Positions 4,924-17,616 are shown, counted from the first letter of the stretch. The stretch is DNA of 52,434 nucleotides from Polyangiaceae bacterium (GCA_020848455.1 JADLAB010000150.1:1-52434), one strand, 5' to 3'. Translations and numbers: made by a program. Notes: generated by a model not told the origin, from the letters alone.

Positions 4924-5754
<831 letters not shown>

Positions 5755-5821: not shown

Positions 5822-5977
5822 CTAGCCCTGCTCGGCGGTCTCGGCCTTGGGCCCCTTCTCGGGGAGCTCGCGCATGCCGAGGCGCTTGGTCGAGCGCTTC
5901 TTCATGCGCACCTTCTTCTTCGGATGCGACAGCCACTCGTGGCGGAGCCGCACGTTCCAGATGGCGTGGTTCGACAT
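5822..5977 (-). CDS. Small basic protein, 51 residues
   Basis: A 51-residue protein very rich in Lys and Arg, with the cluster HPKKKVRMKKRSTKRLG in the middle, after an N-terminal NHAIWNVRLRHEWLS. The ATG at 5977 follows an AGGAG ribosome site at good spacing, which supports a real gene. It has no signal peptide or membrane segment. The charge suggests nucleic-acid or ribosome binding, but I do not recognise the family. It is transcribed away from the lipoprotein array; the 230 bp between them must hold both promoters. Confidence 0.6.
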   Translation of the reverse strand: MSNHAIWNVRLRHEWLSHPKKKVRMKKRSTKRLGMRELPEKGPKAETAEQG

Positions 5978-6151
5978 GGTGGGCGCTCCTATGGTCGAGT
6001 TCCCGCGCCAGGTCAAGCCCGGGGGCTCTCGAGCCGGGCACGCAGGCCGGTCGGTGTACGTGGTTTCGGAGGGTTGCGCGCGCGTCCGCACGCGTGGCGT
6101 GCCCCGGCGGGCTCGCTCACCTCCAGGGGGCGGCGCGAGCGGCCGCTGCCC

Positions 6152-6207: not shown

Positions 6208-6534
6208 ATGAAGAAAAGCTTTTGGATTTACGGCTTGGCGGCCCTCGGGCTCACCGTGTCGGCCTTCGGGTGCAACCCGTACGGCTCGTTCTGCGAGAGC
6301 CAGGAGAGCTGCCGGGGCGGCAACGACAAGGACATCGACGCCTGCACCGAGGAGATCGCGGCCGAGGCCGACATCGGCAGCGCCTACGGCTGCGACGCGG
6401 AGTGGGACGCGCTCTGGGAGTGCGCCGAGGCCGACGCCTACTGCAACAACAGCAACTGGACCTACTCCGACAAGTGCCAAAGCAAGGAGCAGAGCTACAA
6501 CCAGTGCAAGCACGACGCCTCGGGCATCAAGTAG
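6208..6534 (+). CDS. Cys-rich lipoprotein, array member 1 (type A)
   Basis: A 108-residue predicted lipoprotein with lipobox AFGC (C22) after a clear hydrophobic signal. The mature part is acidic, with NPYGSFC, GGNDKDIDAC and SAYGC. Cysteines lie at 22, 29, 35, 46, 62, 72, 79, 90 and 100; apart from the lipidated C22 these could form four disulfides. The core spacing C-x15-C-x9-C-x6-C-x10-C-x9-C recurs through the array, and all nine positions are identical in member 2. It is the first of six same-strand genes. I know no named family with this pattern. The role is unknown; a secreted small disulfide-stabilised envelope protein is all that can be said. Confidence 0.8.
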   Translation: MKKSFWIYGLAALGLTVSAFGCNPYGSFCESQESCRGGNDKDIDACTEEIAAEADIGSAYGCDAEWDALWECAEADAYCNNSNWTYSDKCQSKEQSYNQCKHDASGIK

Positions 6535-6580
6535 CGGCCCACGTTGGCGACAAACTCTGCTGGAATTCTTGGAGAGCAGC

Positions 6581-7039
6581 ATGAAGTACATGACGTTGCT
6601 GACGAGCGTCCTCGCCCTTGGTCTCGCCGCTGGGACCACCGGCTGCAACAAGTACGGGGACTATTGCGAGAAGTGGTCGGCCTGCGTCGGCGGTAACGAC
6701 AAGGACATCGACAAGTGCACCGAGGACTACGACGGTCGTGAGGGCGTCGCGTCCGCGTACGACTGCAGCACCGAGTACGATGCCTGGTGGGAGTGCCGGG
6801 AGCAGAACGCTCACTGCGACAACGCCAACTACACGACGGGCGACAACTGCACGGCCAAGTCGCAGAGCCTCGACCAGTGCGAAGAGAGCGCCTCGGGCCA
6901 CAAGTCGAACAATGGCGTCTGCCAGTGTACCTGCGACTGCGGCGGTGCCCAGGTCCCGACGACGTGCGGCGGTGGCGGCTGCTGCTTTGCGAGCTGCACC
7001 GCGTTGAGCTGCAACTTCGTCTCCGAGGGCGGCTGCTAG
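6581..7039 (+). CDS. Cys-rich lipoprotein, array member 2 (type A with tail)
   Basis: A 152-residue predicted lipoprotein with lipobox TTGC (C22). Its first 100 residues have cysteines at exactly the same positions as member 1 (22, 29, 35, 46, 62, 72, 79, 90, 100), with shared NKYGDYC and GGNDKDIDKC. A cysteine-dense tail is added from residue 114 (CQCTCDC, then a Gly-rich stretch with CC and three more Cys), ten cysteines in 39 residues. Member 6 carries a similar CQCTC tail although it belongs to the other subtype. The start is ATG 6581 with GGAG six nt upstream. The 46-nt gap to member 1 suggests cotranscription. Confidence 0.8.
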   Translation: MKYMTLLTSVLALGLAAGTTGCNKYGDYCEKWSACVGGNDKDIDKCTEDYDGREGVASAYDCSTEYDAWWECREQNAHCDNANYTTGDNCTAKSQSLDQCEESASGHKSNNGVCQCTCDCGGAQVPTTCGGGGCCFASCTALSCNFVSEGGC

Positions 7040-7280
7040 CCTCGATCCGACGGGCTCGCGCCGACGCGCCCGCGCGCCGGGCGACTCGCCGGACCACTCG
7101 CCCGACCGGGGCAGGGGCGCGGGCCCACGACCTCTCGTTGGCCATGCGCCCCGACGTGGGATCGCCGAGCCGATCTCGCGGGAGTGACAGCTCGTGTTCG
7201 CCCGGTACACGCTTGCTCGAGAGCGAGCCGGACTGAACCTTTACACCGCGGCAGTCGCCGTGCTCAGATGGGTCTCAGCG

Positions 7281-7631
7281 ATGCGTACCTCCGTGCGAAG
7301 GACCTTGGTGGCGGCGCTCGTCGGGCTGGGGCTCGCGGCCCCGGCGGCTTGCGGCGGATACGGCAAGTACTGCGACGCGTGGGTCGATTGCCTCAACGGC
7401 AACGACGACGACCGCACCGCCTGTGACACCTGGCTCAGCACCGAGGAGGACCGAGCGTCGCTCTACGGGTGCGACGACCTCTTCGAGGAGCGGCAGGCGT
7501 GCTGGGAGTCGCAGTCGCGCTGCGAGTCTGCCGGCGGCCTGGCCCTCTACGTCACCTGCGACGTCCAGGGTGGGAACAACTGTCGCTGCGACGACGAAGA
7601 GGAACGCTACCACCAGTGCATGCAGGACTGA
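7281..7631 (+). CDS. Cys-rich lipoprotein, array member 3 (type A)
   Basis: A 116-residue predicted lipoprotein with lipobox PAAC (C24), then GGYGKYC and NGNDDDRTAC. Cysteines at 24, 31, 37, 48, 64, 74 and 81 repeat the spacing of members 1 and 2. The next loop is enlarged and holds two extra cysteines (93, 101) before C103-x9-C113. ATG 7281 is chosen because it opens a normal signal peptide; an upstream in-frame GTG would put an unusual stretch before it. A 241-nt gap precedes it, the largest in the array, so a second promoter may lie there; no strong candidate is visible. Confidence 0.78.
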   Translation: MRTSVRRTLVAALVGLGLAAPAACGGYGKYCDAWVDCLNGNDDDRTACDTWLSTEEDRASLYGCDDLFEERQACWESQSRCESAGGLALYVTCDVQGGNNCRCDDEEERYHQCMQD

Positions 7632-7677
7632 CGGGCGGGCACCCGGTCACCCAGACGTACCAGACGGCGAGGCGATG

Positions 7678-8040
7678 ATGCGGATCCGGCTAGTGTTGTT
7701 GGCGGCGGGGCTCGGGCTCGTCGGCGCTTCCGCGACGAGCTGCGGCAAGTCCGGTGCGGAGCTCCTGTGCGACGAGGTCTGCAAGTGCGAGCTCTGCAAC
7801 GACCGCAAGGAGGACGAGTGCGTGATCGAGGCCGGCCTCGCCGAGGACATCGCGTCGGCGTACGACTGCGACGATCGGCGCGAGACCTACGACGACTGCC
7901 GCCTGCACGCGGGTGATTGCGTCGACTCGCGCTGGCACCCCGGCGACTGCGCGCGCGAGCTCGACGATCTCTGCGACTGCATCCACGCGGCCGCGGACGT
8001 CGACGACTCGGTCATCCGAGATCACTTCCCCTGCAACTGA
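7678..8040 (+). CDS. Cys-rich lipoprotein, array member 4 (type B)
   Basis: A 120-residue predicted lipoprotein with lipobox ATSC (C22). It has 13 cysteines. An N-terminal cluster C31-x3-C35-x-C37-x2-C40 is special to type B. It is followed by the same core as type A: C48-x15-C64-x9-C74-x6-C81-x9-C91-x9-C101. Shared words with member 6 are AYDC and YDDC plus a VDDSV-type end. The ATG at 7678 fits the GCGAGG ribosome site better than the ATG one codon upstream. The 46-nt gap to member 3 suggests one transcript. Family unrecognised. Confidence 0.78.
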   Translation: MRIRLVLLAAGLGLVGASATSCGKSGAELLCDEVCKCELCNDRKEDECVIEAGLAEDIASAYDCDDRRETYDDCRLHAGDCVDSRWHPGDCARELDDLCDCIHAAADVDDSVIRDHFPCN

Positions 8041-8060
8041 CGCAACCGAGGCGGGCGACC

Positions 8061-8393
8061 ATGGCGAACAAGACGACCATCATCGGAGGCGTGCTCCTCG
8101 CCCTCGGGCTCCTTTTGCCCATCGGCTGCAAGACCTACGGCGATTTCTGCGAGGCGCGGATGGACTGCGAGGTGGGCAACGACGCGGACGTCGACGCCTG
8201 CCTCGTCGAGATCGAGACGGACGAGGAGCGAGCCGACATCTACGGCTGCTCCGAGTGGTTCGACGACTACATCGCCTGCCGCGAGGCCCAGAGCACGTGC
8301 GAGGCGGGCAACCACTACTCGACGGGCAACAGGTGCGAGCGCGAGGACGAGCACTACCAGGCCTGCCTGCGCGACGGGCTCGACCTGTACTGA
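8061..8393 (+). CDS. Cys-rich lipoprotein, array member 5 (type A)
   Basis: A 110-residue predicted lipoprotein with lipobox PIGC (C23), then KTYGDFC and GNDADVDAC. Its nine cysteines (23, 30, 36, 47, 63, 73, 80, 92, 102) follow the type A plan; only the loop before the last pair is one residue longer. It has no tail. The gap to member 4 is 20 nt and the gap to member 6 is 11 nt, so the last three genes form a tight operon in which type A sits between two type B genes. Confidence 0.8.
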   Translation: MANKTTIIGGVLLALGLLLPIGCKTYGDFCEARMDCEVGNDADVDACLVEIETDEERADIYGCSEWFDDYIACREAQSTCEAGNHYSTGNRCEREDEHYQACLRDGLDLY

Positions 8394-8404
8394 GGAAGGC
8401 GGAC

Positions 8405-8941
8405 ATGAACACGACGAAAGGCTTCCGGCTTCGCTTCGTGGCGCTCTGCACCGCCACCACCGCCTGGCTCGTGGGGACCGCCGCCTGCGGCAGCGTCGCG
8501 AAGGACTGGTGCGAGAAGAAGTGCAACTGCGAGGGTTGCAGCGATCGGGCGCGCGAGCTGTGCGAGCTCGGGATCGAAGCCGACATCGACGTCGCTGACG
8601 CCTACGACTGCACGCCGGAGCGCGAGGACTACGACGACTGCGCCCTGCGTCAGGGCGACTGCGATCAGAACGACTGGCGTCTGCGCAACGACGTGTGCGT
8701 CTCGGAGCGGCAGGCCCTTGCGGACTGCATCTCGGCCGCCTCGGAGCTCGACGACCACGTCGTCAATCCGCCGGTGCAGTGCGCCTGCCAGTGCACCTGC
8801 GCGACCTGCGGGCCGATCGCCGCGAACCCGACCTGCCCGCCCGACCCGGTCTGCACGACGTGCGACGCGGTGTGCACCACGGCGTGCGCTGCGACCGCGA
8901 ACTGCGGCGCCTTCGTCAGCAGCACCGGCACCTGCCAGTAG
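8405..8941 (+). CDS. Cys-rich lipoprotein, array member 6 (type B with tail)
   Basis: A 178-residue predicted lipoprotein, the longest of the six. The lipobox is TAAC (C28), then the type B cluster C36, C40, C42, C45 and the core C53-x15-C69-x9-C79-x6-C86-x11-C98-x9-C108. A tail from residue 126 (CACQCTC, then many Cys, Pro and Thr) shares the CQCTC word with the tail of member 2. The tail appears to have moved between subtypes, or the ancestor had it and others lost it. It ends 28 nt before the convergent PEGA gene. Confidence 0.8.
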   Translation: MNTTKGFRLRFVALCTATTAWLVGTAACGSVAKDWCEKKCNCEGCSDRARELCELGIEADIDVADAYDCTPEREDYDDCALRQGDCDQNDWRLRNDVCVSERQALADCISAASELDDHVVNPPVQCACQCTCATCGPIAANPTCPPDPVCTTCDAVCTTACAATANCGAFVSSTGTCQ

Positions 8942-10889: not shown

Positions 10890-11480
10890 TCAGGGCAGCT
10901 CCTCGTCGATGACCTCCGCCAGCACGTCGTAGTCGAGCGCGCCGACGCCCATGCGGCCGTTGATGAAGAAGGTGGGGGTGCCCGGCACGCCGAGCGCCTC
11001 GCCCTGCGCCTTGTCGGCGTCGACGGCGGGCGCCTCGGTGTGCTGGTCGAGCGCGGCGGCGAACGCCGTCATGTCGAGACCGAGGCTCTGGGCGTAGCCG
11101 TCGAGGGCCGTGCGGCCGAGGGCGTCCTGGTTCGCGTAGAGCACGTCGTGGTAGGCCCAGAACTGGCCCTGCGCTTGCGCGGCGAGCGAGGCCTCCGCCG
11201 CGAGCCTGGCGTGCGGGTGGAACGACAGCGGGAAGTGCTTGTAGACGAAGAGCACGCGGTCCGCGTAGTCGGCCATGAGCTGCCGCACGACGGGCTCCTC
11301 GAGTCCGCAGTAGGGGCACTCGAAGTCCGCGAACTCGACGAACACGACCGCCGCGTCGGCCGGACCCACCGTCGGAGCCGCACCGACGTCCACCGTCATG
11401 CGCGCGTCGGCGTCGGCAAACTCGCTGCCCGTGCAGGCCCCGAGCAGCCCCGCGAGCCCCAGCACCACGAGCCTTCGCAT
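10890..11480 (-). CDS. DsbA-family thiol-disulfide lipoprotein
   Basis: A 196-residue thioredoxin-fold protein with a lipoprotein signal (lipobox LGAC, C16). The active site CPYC is at 55-58, inside [11 protein letters not shown]. The cis-proline loop is [12 protein letters not shown], followed by a C-terminal helix. This is the layout of DsbA/DsbG-like periplasmic oxidoreductases of the thioredoxin_4 type, which form or rearrange disulfide bonds. Such an enzyme would suit the disulfide-rich lipoproteins encoded nearby, but that link is inference. A promoter-like TTGACC-N16-CACAAT lies directly before the start. Confidence 0.9.
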
Positions 11481-14617: not shown

Positions 14618-15622
14618 TCAATCCCCCGCGTCGCGCCGGGCCTTCTGCCGCTTCTTCTCGCGCGCCTCGCGGCGCTCGCGCTTCTGCTCGGCGTAGGCCT
14701 CGCGCTGCGCGTCGGTCGGGGGCTTGCCGAGCAGGTAGCAGAGCCCGATCGACAGGCCGTACAGGGCGATCATCGGCGCGGCCATGAGGAGCTGGGTCGT
14801 CCCGAGGTCGGGCGGCGTGATCACCGCGGCGACGACGAAGGCGATCACGATCCACCAGCGGAAGAAGCGCACGAGGTGCAGGTAGTTGATGACCCCCACG
14901 AGCGAGAGCGCGAGCGTGATGATGGGGATCTCGAAGACGGCGCCGAAGGCGAGCGAGAGCTTCGCGACGAGGTCCACGTACTCGCTCATCATGAGCGTGG
15001 GCGTGAGGCGCGCGCCGGCGGTGTCGATGGGCCCCGCGAGCGACAGCAGCCACTCGAAGGCATAGGGAAAGGCGACGAAGTAGCCGAACACGCAGCCGCA
15101 CGCGAACAGGATGCTCGTCGCGAGCACGAAGGGGATGACGTAGCGCTTCTCGCGGCGGTAGAGCCCGGGCGCGATGAAGCGCCACAGCTGGTAGAAGACG
15201 ACCGGGGCGCCCACCACGAGCCCGACGAGGATGGCGAGCTTCAGGTAGTTCATGAACGCGCCGACCACCGACGTGAAGTGCAGGGTGAGGTCGCCGGGGA
15301 TCTCGTTCTGCTTCCAGGCGCGCTCGAGCGGCTGGACCATGATGCCGAGGATGCGGTCCTTGAAGAACCAGGCGACGATGGTGCCCGCCGTGACCGCGAG
15401 CACGCTCTTGACGATGCGGCCGCGCAGCTCCGAGAGGTGATCCCAGAGGGTCATCGGCGGGTCGTCGCGCTCGTCGTCGTGCGGCGGCCGTGGTGCGGGG
15501 TCGCGCGCGTCCTTGGGCTCGCGCTCCCGGGGCTCGGGCGCGCCCTTGCGCCCGCGCGTGCCGCCGTCGTCCTCTGCGTCGCGCCGCCGCGCGGCGCGCT
15601 CCCGCGGCTCGGCCCGCTTCAA
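14618..15622 (-). CDS. tatC: Sec-independent translocase TatC
   Basis: The polytopic receptor subunit of the twin-arginine export system. The core begins at MTLWDHLSELRGRIV and shows six membrane segments, including IAPGLYRREKRYVIPF and a late FGAVFEIPIITLALSLVG. The end is a charged Arg/Lys/Glu tail. Start choice: TTG 15622 has a GGAGG seven nt upstream and overlaps the TGA of tatB, giving a 334-residue protein with a 56-residue charged extension. ATG 15454 would give a normal 278-residue protein but has no ribosome site. The TTG is preferred on that ground. Confidence 0.88.
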   Translation of the reverse strand: MKRAEPRERAARRRDAEDDGGTRGRKGAPEPREREPKDARDPAPRPPHDDERDDPPMTLWDHLSELRGRIVKSVLAVTAGTIVAWFFKDRILGIMVQPLERAWKQNEIPGDLTLHFTSVVGAFMNYLKLAILVGLVVGAPVVFYQLWRFIAPGLYRREKRYVIPFVLATSILFACGCVFGYFVAFPYAFEWLLSLAGPIDTAGARLTPTLMMSEYVDLVAKLSLAFGAVFEIPIITLALSLVGVINYLHLVRFFRWWIVIAFVVAAVITPPDLGTTQLLMAAPMIALYGLSIGLCYLLGKPPTDAQREAYAEQKRERREAREKKRQKARRDAGD

Positions 15623-16173
15623 GACTCGTCCTCCACGGGCTCCGGGGCGGCGTGCGCGCGCTCCGCGGGGGGCGCGGGCGGCGCGGCGGGCTCGTCGGGG
15701 GCGTAGGGATCCGGGGTGGCGCCGCTCAGCGAGGCGGCGGTGGGCGGCGCCGCCTCGCTCGCTGCCGGGGGCGGCGCGTGGCGTGCGCCGTAGGCGTCGG
15801 GGCCCTCGACCGGGTACTCCCGCTCGGGCGGCGGCTCGTCGGGCGTGCGCCGCGCCCGCGGCCCGGACGCGGCGGGCACGGGCGTCGTCATCGGCTTGAG
15901 ATCGCTCGCGCGCAGGGGGTCCTCGACGCCGAGCAGCGCGCCGAGGGGCTTCGGCCGCGACAGGCCGCGCAGGGTCTGGAGGTCCTTCTGCAGGCCCTCG
16001 GCGCGGATCACCTCGTCGATGCCGCTCTGCTGGCGGAGGTCGTTGCTCATGCGGCGCAGCTTGGTCACCCAGCGGCCGAGGTTGCGCATGAGGCGCGGCA
16101 GCTCCTGCGGGCCGAGCACGACGAGAAACACGATGGCGATGACGATGAGCTCGCCGAAGTCCAGCCCGAACAC
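15619..16173 (-). CDS. tatB: Sec-independent translocase TatB
   Basis: A 184-residue TatA/TatB-family protein. One N-terminal membrane helix (FGELIVIAIVFLVVLGP, about 6-22) is followed by the hinge QELPRLMRNLGRW and an amphipathic helix, then a long Pro/Ala-rich tail to residue 184. The length and the position directly upstream of tatC favour TatB over TatA. The start is GTG 16173 with TAGGAC 6 nt before it. Its stop overlaps the putative TTG start of tatC, so translation is probably coupled. Confidence 0.88.
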   Translation of the reverse strand: MFGLDFGELIVIAIVFLVVLGPQELPRLMRNLGRWVTKLRRMSNDLRQQSGIDEVIRAEGLQKDLQTLRGLSRPKPLGALLGVEDPLRASDLKPMTTPVPAASGPRARRTPDEPPPEREYPVEGPDAYGARHAPPPAASEAAPPTAASLSGATPDPYAPDEPAAPPAPPAERAHAAPEPVEDES

Positions 16174-16179
16174 AGACCA

Positions 16180-16185
16180 GTCCTA
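16180..16185 (-). promoter_or_regulatory. -10-like hexamer 6 nt before tatB
   Basis: TAGGAC on the minus strand, exactly 6 nt before the GTG at 16173. No clear -35. It lies in the divergent region with the FadL-type gene. Confidence 0.3.
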
Positions 16186-16278
16186 CCACAACCACGGCAC
16201 CACGCCCGCCGGCGCCCGTGCCGGGCGCGGTCGCGCCGACGGCCCACGAGACACGAGACTCGATCGGGCCCAATGTCG

Positions 16279-16284
16279 TACAGT
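16279..16284 (+). promoter_or_regulatory. -10-like hexamer 6 nt before the FadL-type gene
   Basis: TACAGT (four of six consensus bases) with exactly 6 nt to GTG 16291. This spacing, repeated at other genes, is used to choose the GTG over the ATG at 16273, which lies upstream of the hexamer. Confidence 0.4.
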
Positions 16285-16290
16285 CGCGCC

Positions 16291-17616
16291 GTGATGGGGT
16301 CGCCGCTCGCTGTCGGAGTGCAGCCTGGCGCGCGTCGGGCGTGCGCGCTCGCGCTCGGCCTCGCCGCGCTGCTCGGCAGCGCACCCTCGCTCGGCTCGCC
16401 GCAGGAGGTGGTGGGCTTCGGCTATCGCTCCATCGGCATGGGCAACACGGGCATGGCCGCGGGCGAGGGCGTCGACAGCGTGTACCTCAACCCGGCCCTG
16501 CTCTCGCTCGGCCACGAGATGCAGCTCGAGCTCGGCGTGCTCGGGGCGAGCTTCTTCCTGCGCGCGGACGGCGAGACGACGCCGGGCAAGCTACCGTACT
16601 CGTCGCTACGGGCGAACACCATCGGAGGCATCCTGCCCTTGCCCTTCGGGGGCGTGCTCGAGGACCGCGTGACCATCGGGCTCGGCTTCCTCACGCCCTT
16701 CGACGTCGTCGTGCGCGGCCGCATCCTCTACCCGGAGAAGGCCCAGTTCCTGCTGGCCGACCGCGTGCAGTCGGTGGCGGTGCAGGCGGCGCTCGGGCTC
16801 GACTTCGGCTACGGCATCCGCGTCGGCGGCGGCTTCGCGGCGCTCGCGGCCCTGTCGGGCTCGGTCGTCGTCGCGACCGACGCCTCGGGCCGCATCGGCA
16901 CGACCGTGAAGGACCAGCTCGTCGCGAGCTACGCGCCGCTCGTCGGCGCGGCCTTCGACCTCGACGAGCACTACCGCCTCGGCGTGACCTTCCGCGGCCC
17001 GCTCCAGGCGCGCTTCAACGTCGTCATCGTGGCCGACGATCTCGGCGGCATCCACATCCCGCCGCTCAACATCTCGGGCGTCGCGCAGTATGACCCGTGG
17101 CAGCTCGGGGCGGAGGTGGCGCGCGTGGGCGGTCCGTGGACGGTCGCGCTCGGTCTCGTCTACAAGCACTGGCCCGCCTATCCGGGCCCGGTCGAGGCCA
17201 CCGTGCGCTGCGAGGACCGCCCCGATCCGAGCCTGCCGTGCAGCGCGCCCACGCCCGCCGAGCCCGGTTACTACCCGGTGGTGGCGCCGCGCCTGGGCGT
17301 CGACCACCGCCTCGAGGCCGGGCCGGGGACGGCGTTCCACCTGCGGGCCGGCTACGCCTTCGAGCCGTCGCCGGCGCCCGCGCAGGTCGGGCGCACGAGC
17401 TACTACGACTCGCACCGGAGCGTCGTGTCGCTGGGCTACGGGATCCGCCTCGAAGATCCACAGCCGCCGCTCTCGTTCGACGGCTACTTCCAGGCCCAGG
17501 TGCTCCACCCCCGCACCCACGAGCGCCGGGTCGCCGAGGGCGCGCCCGCCGACGACGACGTCGTGTCGCAGGGCTTCATCCTCGGGGGCGGCGTCGCGGC
17601 CGCGGTGAGGTTCTGA
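16291..17616 (+). CDS. FadL/OmpP1-type outer-membrane protein
   Basis: A predicted outer-membrane beta-barrel of about 440 residues with a signal peptide (hydrophobic ALALGLAALLGSAPSLGS) and the family-like start YRSIGMGNTGMA followed by VYLNPALLSLG. It has many alternating aromatic strands and a C-terminal phenylalanine (VAAAVRF). FadL-family barrels carry hydrophobic compounds such as long-chain fatty acids across the outer membrane. The start could be GTG 16291, ATG 16294 or ATG 16273. A second barrel gene follows 40 nt downstream. Substrate unknown. Confidence 0.82.
   Translation: MMGSPLAVGVQPGARRACALALGLAALLGSAPSLGSPQEVVGFGYRSIGMGNTGMAAGEGVDSVYLNPALLSLGHEMQLELGVLGASFFLRADGETTPGKLPYSSLRANTIGGILPLPFGGVLEDRVTIGLGFLTPFDVVVRGRILYPEKAQFLLADRVQSVAVQAALGLDFGYGIRVGGGFAALAALSGSVVVATDASGRIGTTVKDQLVASYAPLVGAAFDLDEHYRLGVTFRGPLQARFNVVIVADDLGGIHIPPLNISGVAQYDPWQLGAEVARVGGPWTVALGLVYKHWPAYPGPVEATVRCEDRPDPSLPCSAPTPAEPGYYPVVAPRLGVDHRLEAGPGTAFHLRAGYAFEPSPAPAQVGRTSYYDSHRSVVSLGYGIRLEDPQPPLSFDGYFQAQVLHPRTHERRVAEGAPADDDVVSQGFILGGGVAAAVRF

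Follow-up and report, generated by a model that had tools for sequence, protein, structure and literature searches.

Six small lipoprotein genes lie on the plus strand at positions 6208-8941 of a 52,434-nucleotide stretch of DNA from a Polyangiaceae bacterium (GCA_020848455.1, JADLAB010000150.1:1-52434), the whole of which is called the window here. All six open reading frames begin with ATG, and in all six a lipobox-type cysteine closes an N-terminal hydrophobic stretch. A first-pass annotation had described these genes as a same-strand array of lipoproteins with the cysteine core C-x15-C-x9-C-x6-C, and the coordinates, the lipobox and the cysteine spacing are all confirmed.

Member 1 (6208-6534, plus strand, as are all six) is of subtype A and encodes a 108-residue lipoprotein with nine cysteines; the mature part starts at 6271 and the putative CX9C hairpin described below spans 6391-6507. 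Member 2 (6581-7039; mature from 6644, hairpin 6764-6880) is also of subtype A and has a cysteine-rich C-terminal tail (CQCTCDC...). Member 3 (7281-7631; mature from 7350, hairpin 7470-7619) is a subtype A protein in which an enlarged loop carries one extra cysteine pair. It opens an A–B module with member 4 (7678-8040; mature from 7741, hairpin 7867-7980), which is of subtype B and has an extra CxxxCxCxxC. A second A–B module is opened by member 5 (8061-8393; mature from 8127, hairpin 8247-8366), a subtype A protein with a lysine at position +2 of the mature protein, which pairs with member 6 (8405-8941; mature from 8486, hairpin 8609-8728), of subtype B with a cysteine-rich tail (CACQCTCATC...). 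The mature proteins are 87-151 residues long and consist of the core and a cysteine-rich tail only. The tails of members 2 (6920-7036) and 6 (8780-8938) hold CxCxCxC clusters and further cysteines, and C-terminal tails resembling them are found in two relatives (L055 and L057). A sigma-70 promoter scan at the array found no promoter.

Several other genes of the window surround the array. A lipoprotein gene just upstream (4924-5754, plus strand) has weak copper-binding MopE-type repeats (PF11617, E 1.8e-5, below the cut-off), and a small basic reading frame before the array (5822-6000, minus strand) contains MSNHAIWNVRLRHEWLSHPKKKVRMKKRSTKRLGM. Downstream, on the minus strand, are genes for a DsbA-like thioredoxin-fold lipoprotein with a CPYC motif (10890-11480; PF13462/PF01323) and for TatC (14618-16384), both belonging to envelope folding and export. 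The neighbors of family members differ between genera and are housekeeping genes; those named by eye from sequence, not by profile, include nth, a MeaB-type GTPase, TldE/PmbA and ScpB.

The cysteine core and its probable disulfides

With the lipid cysteine counted as residue 1, the mature cysteines of member 1 stand at positions 8, 14, 25, 41, 51, 58, 69 and 79, a core common to all six members. The spacing C-x15-C-x9-C-x6-C is likewise found in six of six and is followed in five by x9-11-C-x9-C; member 3 has its enlarged loop here, yet it also ends in C-x9-C. All nine core cysteines are shared between members 1 and 2, and near the N terminus members 4 and 6, of the B type, have the additional CxxxCxCxxC. 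The first-pass annotation had these points right. It overlooked that the core terminates in a twin CX9C motif, two C-x9-C pairs flanking a loop, which is present in all six members and strict in 147 of 151 distinct relatives. Several Polyangium A members, L050 and L063 among them, have a cysteine module of the type C-x4-DC-x5-C-x4-C inserted in the loop between the CX9C helices and retain the second CX9C after it. The core is strongly acidic, with a median net charge of about -13 per 80 residues.

Once the lipidated residue is set aside, 134 of 135 distinct mature proteins have an even number of cysteines, in a set of relatives that are not independent of one another. This even parity makes it very probable that all cysteines of the core domain are engaged in disulfide bonds. 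Of the two B-specific cysteines, 75 sequences have both, 74 have neither and 2 have only one. C8 and C25 are jointly missing from two related sequences, which represent one event, and no other member lacks either. Taken with the helix order of the structural model, this co-occurrence suggests the putative pairs 8-25, 14-58, 41-79 and 51-69 in the mature numbering of member 1, with a further candidate pair, 12-17, in the B members.

AlphaFold2 was run with family alignments of 38 sequences for member 1 and 35 for the core of member 6, and the core is predicted to form four helices in two hairpins. The helices of member 1 span residues 5-15, 19-38, 42-55 and 67-84 (mean pLDDT 90.3, pTM 0.73), and the last two bracket the two CX9C pairs. 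The check by structure prediction that had been proposed for the array gave the same four-helix order in the core of member 6 (pLDDT 85.4, pTM 0.72). Foldseek found no significant match in the PDB for the models of members 1 and 6. With VIA-align, mitochondrial chains appeared for both models only among the weak rows (Z 2-4), including a Toxoplasma ATP synthase chain (Z 3.8) and a mitochondrial complex I chain (Z 2.1), rows that prove nothing alone.

The same cysteine clusters, or the GNDxDxDAC motif of the A proteins, could instead bind copper, zinc or calcium, making the proteins a metal store, chaperone or sensor. The CxxxCxCxxC peculiar to the B proteins and the CxCxCxC clusters in the tails of members 2 and 6 would fit such a function, as would the G-N-x-x-D within the acidic GNDxDxDAC motif, which is invariant across 48 A cores, and several mitochondrial CX9C proteins handle copper (PMC5877523). 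However, cysteine parity is even, and C12 and C17 almost always occur together or not at all, which speaks for disulfides and against thiolate metal sites, and the aspartate motif lies at the start of helix 2 in the model, where it may be a helix cap. Metal binding is an unlikely function on this balance.

A Polyangiaceae family of paired genes

A profile of the six members finds nine copies in the same genome, the array six together with a pair on another contig (C705) and one on a third (C39). Of 184 genomes of the order, 36 contain a match, and all 36 belong to one family, taken as the Polyangiaceae; relatives in other genera are matched at E values down to 1e-30. By profile comparison, the shared cysteine core is a case of homology and not of chance. 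Contigs with relatives include those of Polyangium fumosum DSM 14668, further Polyangium isolates and Myxococcales metagenome-assembled genomes. With a broader profile, weaker members are also detected in the phylum outside this family (31 of 379 genomes). The same genes are present in a sister genome of the same genus (G083), where the array is divided between two contigs. In other Polyangiaceae (L131, L134-L138, L149 and L151), a B-type domain is fused to tandem cysteine-rich repeats of the form DGVCDEPxGTGxCPAGTDxxDC, which gave no Pfam match in the one relative tested. These Polyangia extracellular modules, fused downstream of the B-type domain, have another cysteine pattern and are only fusion partners here.

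Most multicopy loci contain an A gene and then a B gene on the same strand, and where the two adjoin, A is upstream of B. The arrangement in Polyangium is A-B-A-B. Singletons, B-B sets and A-A sets also exist; many B members lack an A partner, and some A members lack a B. Pairing of A with B is thus frequent without being obligatory. In a tree of 142 cores and 82 columns, with many forks unresolved, members 1 and 2 cluster with an A-A set from another genus, member 3 groups with member 5, and members 4 and 6 fall inside the B group of A–B pairs. From this grouping, the array looks like one A-A module joined to an A–B module that doubled as a unit. Recent amplification at the DNA level was considered and rejected, since the copies are only 24-48% identical to member 1 in protein sequence and the sister genome has kept the array. 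The first-pass description of a locally amplified, disulfide-rich envelope set is supported in the sense of homology, module duplication, lipoprotein signals and even cysteine parity.

Measured against the sister genome, members 2-6 have dN/dS values of 0.06-0.27 (guaA, 0.21), which signal purifying selection on these five of the six array genes; member 1 differs by six nonsynonymous and two synonymous changes and is too close to judge. The rates bear on a role in kin recognition, toxicity or defense, one of those floated in the first-pass annotation, in which the array would belong to a SitA-like outer membrane exchange system or another polymorphic surface system. Tandem lipoprotein arrays within a social bacterial lineage invite that comparison, as do the B domains sometimes fused to other cysteine-rich extracellular modules, and SitA toxins are likewise myxobacterial lipoproteins encoded in repeated cassettes. 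SitA proteins, however, carry a variable C-terminal nuclease domain and are accompanied by a SitI immunity gene (PMC5562445); the array has neither, its mature proteins of 87-151 residues leaving no separate toxin domain. The purifying selection and the orthologous array kept in the sister genome also count against this role, as do the housekeeping neighbors and the absence of any match to the array proteins in plasmid and phage collections. Recognition or defense is very unlikely on these grounds, and adhesion, which had been suggested alongside, is unsupported, though possible.

Likeness to mitochondrial CHCH proteins

None of the six array proteins has a match above threshold in Pfam or NCBIfam. 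In a Pfam scan of 56 family members, the commonest weak matches were CX9C, CHCH, COX6B, Cmc1 and UPF0203, which we take to be mitochondrial twin-cysteine families. None of these weak matches was left in a control of 55 sequences in which the cysteines were fixed and the other residues shuffled. Scores above the curated cut-off of PF16860 (CX9C) were obtained in 6 of 108 Polyangiaceae genomes, compared with 0 of 237 phylum-wide and 0 of 14 control genomes. The positive proteins have a short loop and an unchanged order of cysteines; they form a sister subtype and score 33.8, 31.1, 29.0 and 28.1 bits against a cut-off of 26.4 (best E 3.3e-8). The earlier view that the array belongs to no named family stands for the six proteins themselves and fails for these sister members. 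Similarly, the profile search that had been suggested with the aligned core recovers homologous relatives, and a known family is reached by the sister subtype only. In the sister-subtype genes L119-L129, the open frame often extends upstream of the likely start through long low-complexity stretches rich in Arg, Trp and Gly, perhaps a repeat of the upstream gene read in another frame.

Searched against PDB sequences, the sister-subtype profile matched CHCHD5 at E 5.6e-6 and NDUFA8 from 5e-4, and nearly all of its 23 matches are mitochondrial CHCH-type proteins; two column-permuted versions of the profile retrieved no CHCH protein from the same sequences. An alignment of 16 human CHCH domains (PMC12114033) served as the reference for hhalign. 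The sister subtype matched it with a probability of 88% (E 2.9e-6), a score reached by 0 of 100 permutations. The corresponding counts were 0 of 100 for subtype A and 1 of 100 for subtype B, with low absolute scores for both. Reciprocal searches connect the two groups: sister-subtype proteins are recovered by the A/B profile, and A/B-type members by the sister-subtype profile. By transitive homology through the sister subtype and by the shared motif, the six array proteins are classed as CHCH-like, with weak CHCH matches of their own. A twin-CX9C hairpin architecture in these bacterial proteins is quite probable.

The likeness has clear limits. Shared with CHCH/PF16860 proteins (CHCHD5 and NDUFA8, and loosely COX6B, CMC1 and PET191) are two C-x9-C helices, predicted here to form a hairpin, and a small, probably oxidized protein in a periplasm-like compartment, together with the significant profile matches of the sister subtype, whose CX9C-x11-CX9C spacing equals that of the first CHCHD5 domain (PMC12114033). 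The array proteins differ in being bacterial, Sec-exported and lipidated, in adding a predicted N-terminal cystine hairpin and an extra loop cysteine presumably paired to the first hairpin, and in having an A and B loop of about 17-18 residues. In place of the Mia40 import pathway, their oxidant is presumably of the DsbA type. Given the signal peptide, the lipobox and the bacterial genes, the location is not that of CHCH proteins, and they are named CHCH-like and not CHCH proteins. According to reviews, twin-CX9C proteins are mitochondrial and prokaryotes lack Mia40 (PMC5509380), and the open-access literature searched did not report CX9C or CHCH proteins in bacteria.

The origin of the likeness is a separate question. 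The family may have arrived at a CHCH-like fold by convergence, as myxobacterial cysteine-rich helical lipoproteins with i,i+10 cysteine pairs across an antiparallel hairpin and no kinship to the mitochondrial proteins. A two-helix cystine hairpin evolves easily, the extra N-terminal hairpin and the extra cysteines are absent from CHCH proteins, members are nearly confined to the Polyangiaceae, and the A and B profiles match CHCH weakly in absolute terms. Common descent draws instead on the sister subtype, which matches CHCH profiles along the helices and the loop and has the CHCHD5 spacing; its matches are lost when non-cysteine columns are permuted, although permutation also destroys helix amphipathicity, so these controls leave convergence possible. 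Convergence is at least as likely as common descent and is the slightly favored account, and true homology of the Polyangiaceae lipoproteins with mitochondrial CHCH proteins is doubtful. Convergence concerns origin and is compatible with the mechanism proposed below.

A candidate envelope adaptor

The reading we prefer is that the array encodes disulfide-stapled twin-CX9C lipoproteins acting as an A–B envelope adaptor, a proposal to which we give a little better than even odds (roughly 0.55). The products would be small outer-envelope lipoproteins with a mature core of about 80 residues folded as two disulfide-stapled helical hairpins. In the second hairpin, an inner and an outer disulfide would join two antiparallel helices that each carry a C-x9-C pair. 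The proteins would be exported by Sec, lipidated and then oxidized by a DsbA-type enzyme to form the four core disulfides C8-C25, C14-C58, C41-C79 and C51-C69, with C12-C17 as a fifth in the B members. In M. xanthus lipoprotein sorting, the absence of a lysine at +2 suggests the outer membrane (PMC5562445). Under that rule five of the six would reach the outer membrane and member 5 might be retained in the inner membrane, though the rule may not hold in the Polyangiaceae.

The DsbA-like lipoprotein encoded at 10890-11480 is a possible local disulfide oxidase for the array. Outside this genome, its gene is a neighbor of the array only in the congeneric sister genome, and across genera no conserved functional neighbors were found outside the A–B pair, the housekeeping genes varying by genus. 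A search for an Evr1/Alr oxidase was silent in the controls also and is uninformative either way.

The A and B proteins from adjacent genes may form a complex, which would be compact, helical and strongly acidic and would serve other envelope proteins as an adaptor or scaffold. The comparison is with CHCH proteins, which act in the mitochondrial intermembrane space as small subunits for assembly and bridging. In mitochondrial complex I, CX9C subunits are small parts that serve in bridging and assembly (PMC8762328), and on this analogy a periplasm-facing A–B adaptor or scaffold is tentatively favored over the metal-binding and recognition or toxin roles, falling somewhat short of even odds when taken by itself.

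Twin-CX9C proteins have been studied as eukaryotic proteins, and their folding is tied to the Mia40–Erv1 relay. The array would place the twin CX9C hairpin, usually treated as eukaryotic, in the bacterial envelope as well, and the setting is new for a CHCH-like hairpin: a lipoprotein of the bacterial envelope with an extra hairpin and paired genes. A bacterial family that relies on Sec export and presumed DsbA oxidation asks whether the fold needs Mia40 and where CHCH proteins come from. If the proteins were true homologues, the CHCH class would include a DsbA-folded branch in bacteria, as its source or as a result of gene transfer between myxobacteria and early eukaryotes. For the Polyangiaceae, the analysis names a multicopy and previously undescribed component of the envelope, with an A–B partner pair that can be tested.
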